Shown here: in pieces, positions 1,958-42,632 of the stretch | Numbering within the stretch: position 1 is the first letter of the stretch | How the letters are laid out: the number at the start of each line of letters is the position of its first letter | DNA from: Pseudomonas sediminis | Lineage (GTDB): Bacteria > Pseudomonadota > Gammaproteobacteria > Pseudomonadales > Pseudomonadaceae | DNA length: 64,000 bases | Assembly (NCBI RefSeq): GCF_002741105.1 | Contig: NZ_NIQU01000007.1 | Location: 124,001 to 188,000 of the forward strand | Direction: 5' to 3' | Translations under genes and position numbers: made by a program | Notes under the pieces: generated by a model | Told to the model about the DNA's origin: nothing | Seen by the model: only the letters and a program-made list of their open reading frames with translations | Database searches by the model: none

Positions 1958-3889
1958 ATGAGCAAGGCCGACGCAATGGCCGATGCGGGCAAGACTGCGG
2001 TGCTTCAGAACATCCACGGCACCATGGAGTTCCTGCACAAGTTCCCGCCTTTCAACCAGATGGACACCGCTCACCTGGCGTATCTGGTCGAGCACTGCCA
2101 GCTGCGCTTCTATGCCGAAGGTGACTCGATCATCAAGCCCAGCGATGGCCCGGTCGAGCACTTCTACATCGTCAAACAGGGCCGCGTGCACGGTGAGCGC
2201 CCACACAGCGCCCGGCGCGGCACCGAGACCACTTTTGAGATCACCGCCGGCGAGTGCTTCCCCCTGGCGGCACTGATCGGCGAACGCGCCACGCGCACCG
2301 AACACCTGGCCGCCGAAGATACCTTCTGCCTGCTGTTGGCCAAGCACGCCTTCATCAAGCTGTTCGCCGTTTCCAACCCGCTGCGCGACTTCGCCCTGCG
2401 CGGGGTCAGCAGCCTGCTCGATCAGGTCAACCAGCAGGTACAACTGCGCGCGGTGGAAACCCTCGGCGCGCAATACTCGCTGGACACCCGCCTGGGCGAA
2501 CTGGCCATGCGTCAACCCATCGGCTGCGCGCCCGACACGCCTGTTCGCGATGCCGTGCGGCTTATGCACGAGCAGCACGTGGGCAGCATCGTGGTGCTCG
2601 ATCCGGCCGACAAACCACTGGGCATCTTCACCCTGCGCGACCTGCGCCGGGTGGTCGCCGATGGCGTCGACCTGGCCCAGCCCATCGACAATCTGATGAC
2701 ACCCAATCCGTTTCATCTGCCGCCGGATGCCAGCGCCTTCGATGCCGCCATCGCCATGACCGAGCGGCATATCGCCCACGTCTGCCTGGTGGAACACGAG
2801 AAACTGTGCGGGGTGATTTCCGAGCGCGACCTGTTCAGCCTGCAGCGCGTCGACCTGGTGCATCTGGCGCGTACTATTCGCCATGCCGGCAAGGTAGAGA
2901 CCTTGGCCGGGCTGCGCAGCGATATTCGCCTGCTGGTCGACCGCATGCTCGCCCACGGCGCCAGTTCGACGCAGATCACCCATATCGTCACCCTGCTCAA
3001 CGACCACACCGTATGCCGGGTGATCGAACTGACCCTCGAGGAAATGGGCGATCCGGGTATCCCATTCACCTGGCTGTGCTTCGGCAGCGAGGGCCGCCGC
3101 GAGCAGACCCTGCACACCGACCAGGACAACGGCATCCTTTTCGAGGCGGAAAACGCCAGCGAGGCTGCGGCAATTCGCGAGCGCCTGCTACCGATCGCCC
3201 GCGAGATCAACCAGCGCCTGGCGCAGTGCGGCTTCACCCTGTGCAAGGGCAACATCATGGCCGGCAATCCCGAGCTGTGCCTGTCGCGCCAGGAATGGTC
3301 ACGGCGCTTTGCTGGCTTCGTCCTCGAAGCCACGCCGGAGAATCTGCTGGGCTCGTCGATCTACTTCGACCTGCGCACCATCTGGGGTCCGGACGAAGGC
3401 TGCGAACAACTGCGCGAAGAATTGCTCGGCCGCGTCGCCAGCAACAGCCTGTTCCAGAAGATGCTGGCCGAGAACGCTCTACGCCAGCGCCCGCCGGTCG
3501 GGCGCTTCCGTGATTTCGTGGTGGCCCGTTCCGGCGCCGACAAGGACACCCTCGACCTCAAGGTGCAGGGCCTGACGCCTTTCGTCGACGGCGCGCGCCT
3601 GCTGGCACTGGCCAACGGCATCAGCGCAGTCGGCACCCTCGAGCGTTTGCGCGCGTTGATCACCAAGGGCGTGATCGATGCGCTGGACGGCGCCGCCTAT
3701 GAAGAGGCCTATCATTTCATTCAGCAGACGCGTATGCAGCAGCATCAGTTGCAGGCACGTGACGAGCTGCCCTATTCCAATCGGGTCGACCCCGACCACC
3801 TCAACCACCTGGACCGGCGTATTCTGCGCGAGTCGTTCCGCCAGGCGCAGCGCCTGCAGAGCAGCCTGGCCATGAGGTATCAGTTATGA
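1958..3889 (+). CDS. cNMP-binding / CBS-pair / DUF294 nucleotidyltransferase-like signalling protein
   Basis: A soluble 643-residue protein. Domain order: cyclic-nucleotide-binding fold (about 30-140), two CBS motifs (about 170-290, each with the pattern VGSIVVLD...GIFTLRDL), a DUF294 GlnD-like nucleotidyltransferase region (about 320-455, GSEGRREQTLHTDQDNG) and the DUF294 C-terminal domain. This resembles an adenylate/cNMP-sensing regulator with a GlnD-type uridylyl/adenylyl transferase module. In many proteobacteria such genes are linked to the DUF4212/VC_2705 sodium:solute symporter pair, which lies at 6844-8880 here, and to a DnaQ-like exonuclease, which overlaps its stop codon. A role in sensing energy state to control acetate or solute uptake is inference. 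ATG at 1958 gives the family length. Confidence 0.85.
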   Translation: MSKADAMADAGKTAVLQNIHGTMEFLHKFPPFNQMDTAHLAYLVEHCQLRFYAEGDSIIKPSDGPVEHFYIVKQGRVHGERPHSARRGTETTFEITAGECFPLAALIGERATRTEHLAAEDTFCLLLAKHAFIKLFAVSNPLRDFALRGVSSLLDQVNQQVQLRAVETLGAQYSLDTRLGELAMRQPIGCAPDTPVRDAVRLMHEQHVGSIVVLDPADKPLGIFTLRDLRRVVADGVDLAQPIDNLMTPNPFHLPPDASAFDAAIAMTERHIAHVCLVEHEKLCGVISERDLFSLQRVDLVHLARTIRHAGKVETLAGLRSDIRLLVDRMLAHGASSTQITHIVTLLNDHTVCRVIELTLEEMGDPGIPFTWLCFGSEGRREQTLHTDQDNGILFEAENASEAAAIRERLLPIAREINQRLAQCGFTLCKGNIMAGNPELCLSRQEWSRRFAGFVLEATPENLLGSSIYFDLRTIWGPDEGCEQLREELLGRVASNSLFQKMLAENALRQRPPVGRFRDFVVARSGADKDTLDLKVQGLTPFVDGARLLALANGISAVGTLERLRALITKGVIDALDGAAYEEAYHFIQQTRMQQHQLQARDELPYSNRVDPDHLNHLDRRILRESFRQAQRLQSSLAMRYQL

Positions 3890-40384: not shown

Positions 40385-41638
40385 TTAGCGATACACCGGG
40401 TAGTCCGCGCACAGCCCGGCGACCAGCTTGGCCACCTGCGCCTCGACATCGGCATCGCCGAGGTGATCGAGGATGTCGCAGATCCAGCCGGCCAGCGCCT
40501 GGCACTGGGCGACCTTGAAGCCACGGGTGGTGACGGCCGGCGTACCGATGCGGATGCCCGAGGTCACGAACGGCGACTGCGGGTCGTTGGGTACGGCGTT
40601 CTTGTTCACGGTGATGCCGGCACGGCCGAGGGCGGCGTCAGCCTCCTTGCCGGTCAGCCCTTGCTTGATCAGGCTGAGCAGGAACAGGTGGTTGTCGGTG
40701 CCACCGGAGACCACCTCGTAGCCGCGCTCGATAAAGACCTTGGCCATGGCCTGGGCGTTATCGATCACCTGCTGCTGGTAGGCCTTGAACTCCGGCTCCA
40801 TGGCTTCCTTGAAGCACACGGCCTTGGCGGCGATGACGTGCATCAGCGGCCCGCCCTGGGCACCGGGGAAGACGGCGGAATTGAGCTTCTTCTCGATCTC
40901 TTCGTTGGCCTTGGCCAGGATCAGGCCGCCACGCGGGCCACGCAGAGTCTTGTGGGTGGTGGTAGTGACCACATCGGCGAAGGGAATCGGGTTCGGATAC
41001 AGCCCCGCCGCGACCAAACCGGCGACGTGGGCCATGTCGACGAACAGCAGCGCACCGACCTTGTCGGCGATGGCGCGAAAGCGCGGGAAATCCAGGGTCT
41101 TGGAGTAGGCGGAGAAGCCGGCGACGATGATCTTCGGCTTGTGCTCGACGGCCAGGCGCTCGACTTCGTCGTAATCGATCAGCCCGGTGGCGGTGTCCAG
41201 GCCGTACTGCACGGCGTTGTAGAGTTTGCCCGAGGACGACACCTTGGCGCCGTGAGTCAGGTGGCCGCCGTGGGCCAGGCTCATGCCGAGGATAGTGTCG
41301 CCGGCATTGAGCAACGCCAGGTACACGGCGCTGTTGGCCGACGAGCCGGAGTGCGGCTGAACGTTGGCGTAATCGGCGCCGAACAGGGCCTTGGCGCGGT
41401 CGATGGCGAGTTGCTCGACCTTGTCGACGTACTCGCAGCCACCGTAATAACGCTTGCCCGGATAACCTTCGGCGTACTTGTTGGTCAGGCCGCTGCCCTG
41501 CGCTTCCATCACCCGCTGGCTGCAGTAGTTCTCCGAGGCGATCAGCTCGATGTGCTCTTCCTGACGGCGTTCTTCCTGATCGATCGCCGCGAGCAACTCG
41601 TCGTCGTAACCCTGAATCTGATCCTGCTTGCTGAACAT
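40385..41638 (-). CDS. glyA: Serine hydroxymethyltransferase
   Basis: A 417-residue PLP enzyme interconverting serine and glycine with tetrahydrofolate. The PLP lysine is in [16 protein letters not shown]. This copy heads the sox operon, as the glyA1 paralogue does in P. aeruginosa, and consumes the glycine and methylene-THF made from sarcosine. ATG at 41636-41638 with AGGAGAG upstream; the frame is open to 41836 but that part lies in the operator region. Confidence 0.95.
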
Positions 41639-41762
41639 CTCGACTCTCCTGCAGCGCCTGTGGGCGGCGGTCTTGGACGGGCGGGCCGGCAAGGCCCTGT
41701 GCAGCGATGGTAGGGCCGCCCCTGCCCACTCAAATGCCTGCCAACGCCGTGAGAGCATTCGT

Positions 41763-41784
41763 TTGCGACATGGTCTTGTCGCAA
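41763..41784. promoter_or_regulatory. Candidate operator of the glyA-sox operon
   Basis: TTGCGACA-TGGTCT-TGTCGCAA, a perfect 8-bp inverted repeat, about 125 bases before the glyA ATG. The known regulators of this operon in P. aeruginosa are SouR and GbdR (AraC/GATase-like), whose targets include gbcA; the TGCGACA half also occurs in the gbcA-gbcB gap at 45216. Assignment to either is inference. Confidence 0.55.
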
Positions 41785-41838
41785 TCAGGCGCGTCGAGAT
41801 CAGTTCGCGGTTTTGCGCACAAATAACGGGGATCAAGC

Positions 41839-42269
41839 TGTGGATAAACCGTGCACAGTGCTCCTCGCCCCAGCGCCTGCAGGCACTCCAGGGAAAAGAT
41901 CATTTCCTGATCGATATCAAGCAGTTAATAACGCAGACCATGCACAGAAGCCGTGGACTAGCCTGTGGAAAAGCTGTCAACAGATGGCCAGGGGCTTGGC
42001 CAGCCGTGGCCTCGGCAGCGCTGTTCGATATCCATACACCCACGCAGACGCCCTGGCTTATCCACCAGCGACATGAGCGAAAGGCGAGGATCGGTTGGGG
42101 ATATGCACAGAAGATGTGGATGACACTGTGCATAGGCTGTTCGACATGGGCCAGCAGCCAGGGCTGCCGCGGCCTGCCGGGATGCGGCTAAAAATCGAAC
42201 AGGGTCAAAGATATAGAGCAGGCTTGTGCACAAATACTGTGGGCGGCGCTGTGCATGGCCTGTGGAAAC
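41839..42269. repeat. Three 37-bp direct repeats with DnaA-box-like sites
   Basis: Motif TGCACA-N6-GTGG(A/G)-N5-CTGTG(C/G)-N5-CTGT at 41941-41977, 42104-42140 and 42227-42263, all three with identical spacing. DnaA-box matches (TTWTNCACA, read on the minus strand) at 41839-41847 and 41964-41972; one-mismatch versions at 42058, 42115, 42127, 42225 and 42261. Confidence 0.7.
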
Positions 42270-42332
42270 ATGGCGCTGGGCCAGAGCCCATGGGGCTCCG
42301 GCGCCAGCGCCTGCTATTTGCTCAACGACACC

Positions 42333-42632
42333 TTAAGGCTTGAGCTTGCCAGCACAGCTGCTGGAGGCATTCACCAGACGCTGCTGCATGGCAGGGTCAG
42401 GCGGGGATTGGCGGCTGATTTCCTGCAACTCGGCTTCGCTGAATTCCTTGCTGACGTTGGTCGCAGCGCAGTCGCAATAAGCACGCAGTTGTGGCTCCTC
42501 GTAGCCTGCCGGTGCGCCAGCAATGCACTGCTGAACGAATTCGGTCTTGGCATTATCCGACCACTCGGCGGCGGAAACGGGCAGCGCCACGGCCAGCGGC
42601 AGGGCAAGGGCGAGCAGGTGACGATAAGTCAT
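42333..42632 (-). CDS. Small exported protein of unknown function
   Basis: A 99-residue protein with a signal peptide (MTYRHLLALALPLAVALPVSA, cleavage near SA-AEW) and four cysteines in the mature part (CIAGAP.., CDCAATN, CAGKLKP), likely two disulfides. An equivalent small gene lies between ltaE and glyA in P. aeruginosa, so it belongs to the local cluster; its function is unknown. I use the ATG at 42630-42632 with AAGGAG upstream. Confidence 0.75.
   Translation of the reverse strand: MTYRHLLALALPLAVALPVSAAEWSDNAKTEFVQQCIAGAPAGYEEPQLRAYCDCAATNVSKEFSEAELQEISRQSPPDPAMQQRLVNASSSCAGKLKP

Follow-up and report, generated by a model that had tools for sequence, protein, structure and literature searches.

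The glyA gap and its three-box cores

The window analysed here is the whole 64-kb stretch C15:124001-188000 of a Pseudomonas genome (4.88 Mb, 18 contigs). Within it, a non-coding gap of 694 bp (41639-42332) lies upstream of glyA, as the first-pass annotation had described. The gene downstream of the gap is glyA itself, encoding serine hydroxymethyltransferase (40385-41638, minus strand; NF000586.1, E=3.2e-198), and on the gap's other side is a small ORF of 99 amino acids with a signal-peptide-like start and no known family (42333-42632, minus strand). Mobile or repeated DNA was ruled out for the gap, given its single occurrence in this genome. The three copies of a 37-bp motif reported to start at 41941, 42104, and 42227 were recovered, but the spacers first assigned to them (N6/N5/N5) had to be revised: taken literally, that pattern is without a match in the window or the genome. 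The corrected pattern, TGCACA-N6-GTGG-N6-CTGTG-N6-CTGT, has exactly three perfect matches in the 4.88-Mb genome, all in the gap, and its reversed control had no match genome-wide. A genome-wide search at 3 mismatches identified a fourth, previously overlooked copy at 41816, as well as five further copies elsewhere in the genome.

When aligned to the DnaA box TTATNCACA, each copy resolves into a core of three boxes: box I forward, box II reverse after 5 bp, and box III reverse after a further 3 bp. The best copy, core c2 (42101-42135, plus strand), carries box I ATATGCACA at 42101-42109, box II TGTGGATGA at 42115-42123, and box III TGTGCATAG at 42127-42135, each with one mismatch to the consensus. 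The copy missed in the first pass, core c0 (41813-41847, plus strand), comprises TTGCGCACA (41813-41821), CGGGGATCA (41827-41835; 3 mismatches), and TGTGGATAA (41839-41847), the last an exact DnaA box on the minus strand. Core c1 (41938-41972, plus strand), which includes the motif copy at 41941, has its box I at 41938-41946, a box II with 3 mismatches at 41952-41960, and box III TGTGGAAAA at 41964-41972. Core c3 (42224-42258, plus strand), which includes the copy at 42227, consists of TTGTGCACA (42224-42232), a box II with 4 mismatches (42238-42246), and TGTGCATGG (42250-42258). Core c2 alone is thus close to consensus, whereas c0, c1, and c3 are degenerate, their box II having 3 to 4 mismatches; these three may therefore bind DnaA weakly. 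The final CTGT of the original motif, 3 bp past box III, could be a fourth box, yet it is only weakly conserved (mean 0.84, P 0.04) and is not claimed here.

The same four sites emerged from an outside template that combined the Escherichia coli geometry (gaps of 5 and 3 bp) with a generic box consensus, mismatches being counted out of 24. The top four triples of the window began at 42101 (3 mismatches), 41813 (5), 41938 (6), and 42224 (7), each of them on the plus strand; the fifth had 9. Box I stands opposite to boxes II and III clearly at 42101, and with degenerate boxes at 41813, 41938, and 42224. Among a grid of 49 spacings over the 64-kb window, no other yielded a comparable set, and among 60 windows simulated with matching dinucleotide composition, none contained a triple with at most 6 mismatches (3 observed).

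Beyond the cores, the gap holds an additional DnaA box, TTATCCACC, between c1 and c2 (42058-42066, plus strand), and a candidate IHF site, TATCAAGCAGTTA (consensus WATCAANNNNTTR), 10 bp before core c1 (41915-41927, plus strand). The two exact DnaA boxes previously counted in the gap hold under the relaxed consensus TTWTNCACA (41839 and 41964); under the strict box there is one, TTATCCACA (41839-41847, minus strand), alongside three with one mismatch.

Two inverted repeats also lie in the gap. The first, TTGCGACA-N6-TGTCGCAA (41763-41784), is perfect, is located about 125 bp upstream of glyA, and is kept in orthologous gaps; homology to other Pseudomonas stops just past it. It looks like an operator of the glyA operon and is a candidate for that role; as a guess, its regulator would be of the AraC type, from sarcosine/glycine betaine catabolism. 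The second, CTGTTCGA (42137-42144) and TCGAACAG (42195-42202), has conserved arms 50 bp apart and falls just after core c2.

Conservation in relatives and recurrence across genomes

Conservation in related genomes, which the first-pass annotation had set as a check, was found well beyond one strain. Seventeen relatives carry the array in their orthologous gap, at an overall identity of 75-94%, and the exact 37-bp motif, mostly in groups of 2 or 3, occurs in named P. mendocina/oleovorans/alcaliphila-group species. Alignment identity reached 0.94 for box I, 0.92 for box II, and 0.96 for box III, versus 0.78 elsewhere in the stretch, and none of 20,000 background resamplings attained any of the three box values; the 3-bp gaps between boxes were conserved no better than background. 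No other 35 bp of the gap are as conserved as core c2, whose boxes have an identity of 0.99 over 18 sequences. Core-to-core distances of 125, 163, and 123 bp are kept within a few bases across the 17 orthologous gaps, including one (L007) with a distance of 126 bp, for which the value of 109 in the alignment is an artefact of an incomplete row. The IHF consensus TATCAAGCAGTTA, of which there are just 2 sites in the 64-kb window, was matched strictly in 15 of the 18 aligned sequences, and the extra DnaA box at 42058-42066 is kept in nearly all 18, amid an otherwise variable stretch. The array is intergenic, conserved among relatives, and similarly placed relative to dnaA in four closed relatives (at 8-12%), but the glyA gap of most of the genus is without it: most other Pseudomonas retain just the part proximal to glyA. 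One such species has a pair of DARS-like cores (at 2894 and 3399 of L109, G017:C1:4192000-4199000) adjoining gbcA and about 9 kb from glyA; in that species the array may have relocated without leaving this neighbourhood.

The core itself recurs far more widely than the array. The pattern used for genome searches, TTNTNCAC-N6-TGTGNANAA-N3-TGTGNANAA with at most 3 mismatches, was matched in all of 149 Pseudomonas genomes, 4 to 13 times in each, while the same pattern read backward gave 8 hits in total over the 149. One extra base between boxes I and II (gaps of 6 and 3 bp) reduced the matches to 47/149 genomes and about 66 hits, some 14-fold fewer. Across the class, the 5/3 pattern was found in 257 of 276 genomes (254 of the 273 of good quality, 93%), typically 1 to 4 times each; with one extra base between boxes II and III (5/4), it was found in 67/276 (66/273 of good quality), many of these hits being shadows of true sites. 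At the level of the phylum, 169 of 249 genomes matched, with 84/89 within the class (counted from rows). Among these were genomes of one family of the class whose two best hits were near-identical to DARS1 and DARS2 and serve as a positive control, the family having been assigned from these sequences. Outside the class, members of one family (f177; genomes of about 2-3 Mb) had several 5/3 triples per genome in the phylum-level search.

In its own genome, the core occurs at 11 sites with 3 or fewer mismatches, intergenic as far as ORF calls show. Three core sites are syntenic with those of a distant Pseudomonas: one adjoins genes for an FKBP isomerase and a DUF1232 protein, one adjoins rmuC, and one adjoins rarD and an ACT-domain gene. 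A second array in this genome (L102, C1:854024-857370) contains five DARS-like cores in two groups, which flank genes for a LysE-type transporter, a lysine-decarboxylase-like (LOG) protein, and a DUF808 protein. Many Pseudomonas genomes also share a further pair of cores, separated by 202-203 bp and exemplified by those at 3299 and 3501 of L110 (G125:C1). With respect to chromosomal position, four closed relatives have the glyA array at 10.2, 10.3, 8.4, and 12.2% of the chromosome length from dnaA. Of the 46 site loci in eight closed genomes, 44 fall at 4-35% from dnaA (binomial P 1.6e-5, an overstated value, since some of the loci are orthologous to one another and rounded lengths were used for four genomes).

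Comparison with known DnaA-binding loci and alternative readings

DARS elements have been described for E. coli strains (PMC4585315), and the DARS2 core is conserved in gammaproteobacteria related to E. coli (PMC4245941). DARS1 and DARS2 share identical box spacing, with box I opposite to boxes II and III (PMC5742627). Scanning the corresponding regions of E. coli K-12 for their best triple gave TTATCCACT-ATTCC-TGTGGATAA-CCA-TGTGTATTA for DARS1 (bioD-uvrB) and TTATTCACC-TTTTC-TGTGGATAG-AGT-TGTGAAGAA for DARS2 (rppH-mutH), both with gaps of 5 and 3 bp, as in the cores of the glyA array. DnaA ChIP peaks in E. coli are found at both DARS1 and DARS2, with the same II-III pairs listed, and DnaA requires box pairs 2-3 bp apart (PMC11317965). 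The array resembles DARS1 (101 bp) in its three-box core, inverted box I, 5/3 gaps, and location in a non-coding gap; in contrast, DARS1 has one core with near-consensus boxes at 33% from oriC, and the glyA array has four cores, three of them degenerate, at about 10%. DARS2 (455 bp) shares the core geometry, extra DnaA boxes, and an IHF-type site nearby, but has one strict core with required Fis and IHF sites in a different gene neighbourhood. The glyA array has no shared synteny with either E. coli locus. Boxes II and III of the array also form a pair of the kind known as double DnaA boxes in the E. coli DnaA regulon (PMC11317965), 3 bp apart, although the definition of such pairs includes no inverted third box at a distance of 5 bp.

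The multi-copy DnaA-binding array proposed in the first pass is well supported by these sequence features. We consider it likely, at a probability of roughly 0.6, that the gap is a multi-core DARS-type element, made up of four triples, a further DnaA box, and an IHF-type site, which would bind DnaA and probably aid the conversion of ADP-DnaA to ATP-DnaA. By analogy with DARS1 and DARS2, DnaA binding with a preference for the ADP form, nucleotide exchange, and a contribution of IHF would be expected. DnaA, preferentially ADP-DnaA, would assemble head-to-tail on boxes II and III and contact the DnaA on the inverted box I; DNA bending at the IHF site would help the complex to release ADP, and the freed DnaA could then take up ATP and become able to start replication at oriC. 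Because the gap has four copies of the three-box pattern of DARS1 and DARS2, it is probably a site of chromosome replication control.

The main rival to the DARS reading is a DnaA sink or datA-like site, a negative locus whose boxes would sequester DnaA from oriC once that part of the chromosome has been duplicated or, together with IHF, would accelerate the hydrolysis of ATP bound to DnaA. Titration of DnaA on the chromosome is supported in E. coli (PMC12371093), and the array shares with datA a cluster of DnaA boxes with a candidate IHF site; its multi-copy form would suit such a role as well. The IHF consensus sits between the DnaA boxes at 41839 and 41938, which may parallel the arrangement of datA, where DnaA boxes (2, 3, and 7) stand on either side of one IHF site. 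At about 10%, the origin distance is also nearer that of datA (10.1%) than those of DARS1 (32.9%) and DARS2 (20.6%) in E. coli. However, the inverted-direct-direct geometry with 5/3 gaps is that of DARS, and datA is without a good triple of this kind, its best fit having 6 mismatches, 4 of them in box I; datA was accordingly rejected as a template for the array. A sink also needs no fixed spacing between boxes I and II, yet a single added base there had the genus-wide cost given above. The titration locus suggested in the first pass is possible without being the closest match, since in the order, orientation, and spacing of its boxes the array agrees with the E. coli DARS core. We regard a sink or datA-like role as rather unlikely, though it deserves real weight.

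It is improbable that the array serves DnaA-controlled transcription of glyA or of the small-ORF gene, by which one-carbon/glycine metabolism would be tied to replication. The array does lie upstream of glyA, and E. coli DnaA regulates nucleotide-synthesis genes, where it binds paired boxes with a 3-bp gap (PMC11317965). Control of glyA is nonetheless unlikely because most of the genus retains the glyA-proximal block (41684-41790) without the array. Furthermore, a promoter/terminator scan found nothing in the array and no promoter was predicted near it, related cores adjoin unrelated genes, and the separate inverted repeat nearer glyA has the look of that gene's operator.

Still less probable is that the motif belongs to another protein with a DnaA-box-like site, or that the repeats are decayed and functionless. 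Box II is poor in three copies and the TGTGCACA palindrome could be read by other regulators, but across the genome the motif's counterparts consist of near-perfect DnaA boxes at the same spacing, and the boxes remain conserved at 75% overall identity, which argues against decay. Least probable of all is a non-coding RNA made from the gap, a possibility raised in the first pass: fold energy was below that of shuffles (z -3.4 and -3.0), but the signal was equal on both strands, as inverted boxes predict, the covariation term of +0.33 denotes no covariation, neither an Rfam match nor a predicted promoter was found in the gap, and conservation is concentrated in the DNA boxes.

Possible control of DnaA in Pseudomonas and its class

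The papers searched contained no account of DARS in Pseudomonas, although the founding paper (Fujimitsu 2009) may already mention one; judged by this literature, multi-core DARS arrays would be a new arrangement. More tentatively than for the element itself, we suggest that control of DnaA in Pseudomonas might operate as a distributed network of many DARS-type cores (4 to 13 clear cores in each genome, a number of them grouped in arrays of 3 to 5 with fixed spacing, and nearly all at 5-35% from oriC), that within this network the multi-core arrays near 10% could be hubs that hold and recharge DnaA, and that the DARS core might be a gammaproteobacterial device of the whole class, beyond the relatives of E. 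coli. With the core geometry present in 149/149 Pseudomonas and 93% of the good-quality genomes of the class, the class as a whole may recycle its replication initiator, and a class-wide core makes such recycling directly testable outside E. coli. The conserved place and spacing of the multi-core arrays, in turn, ask what a single core does not do.
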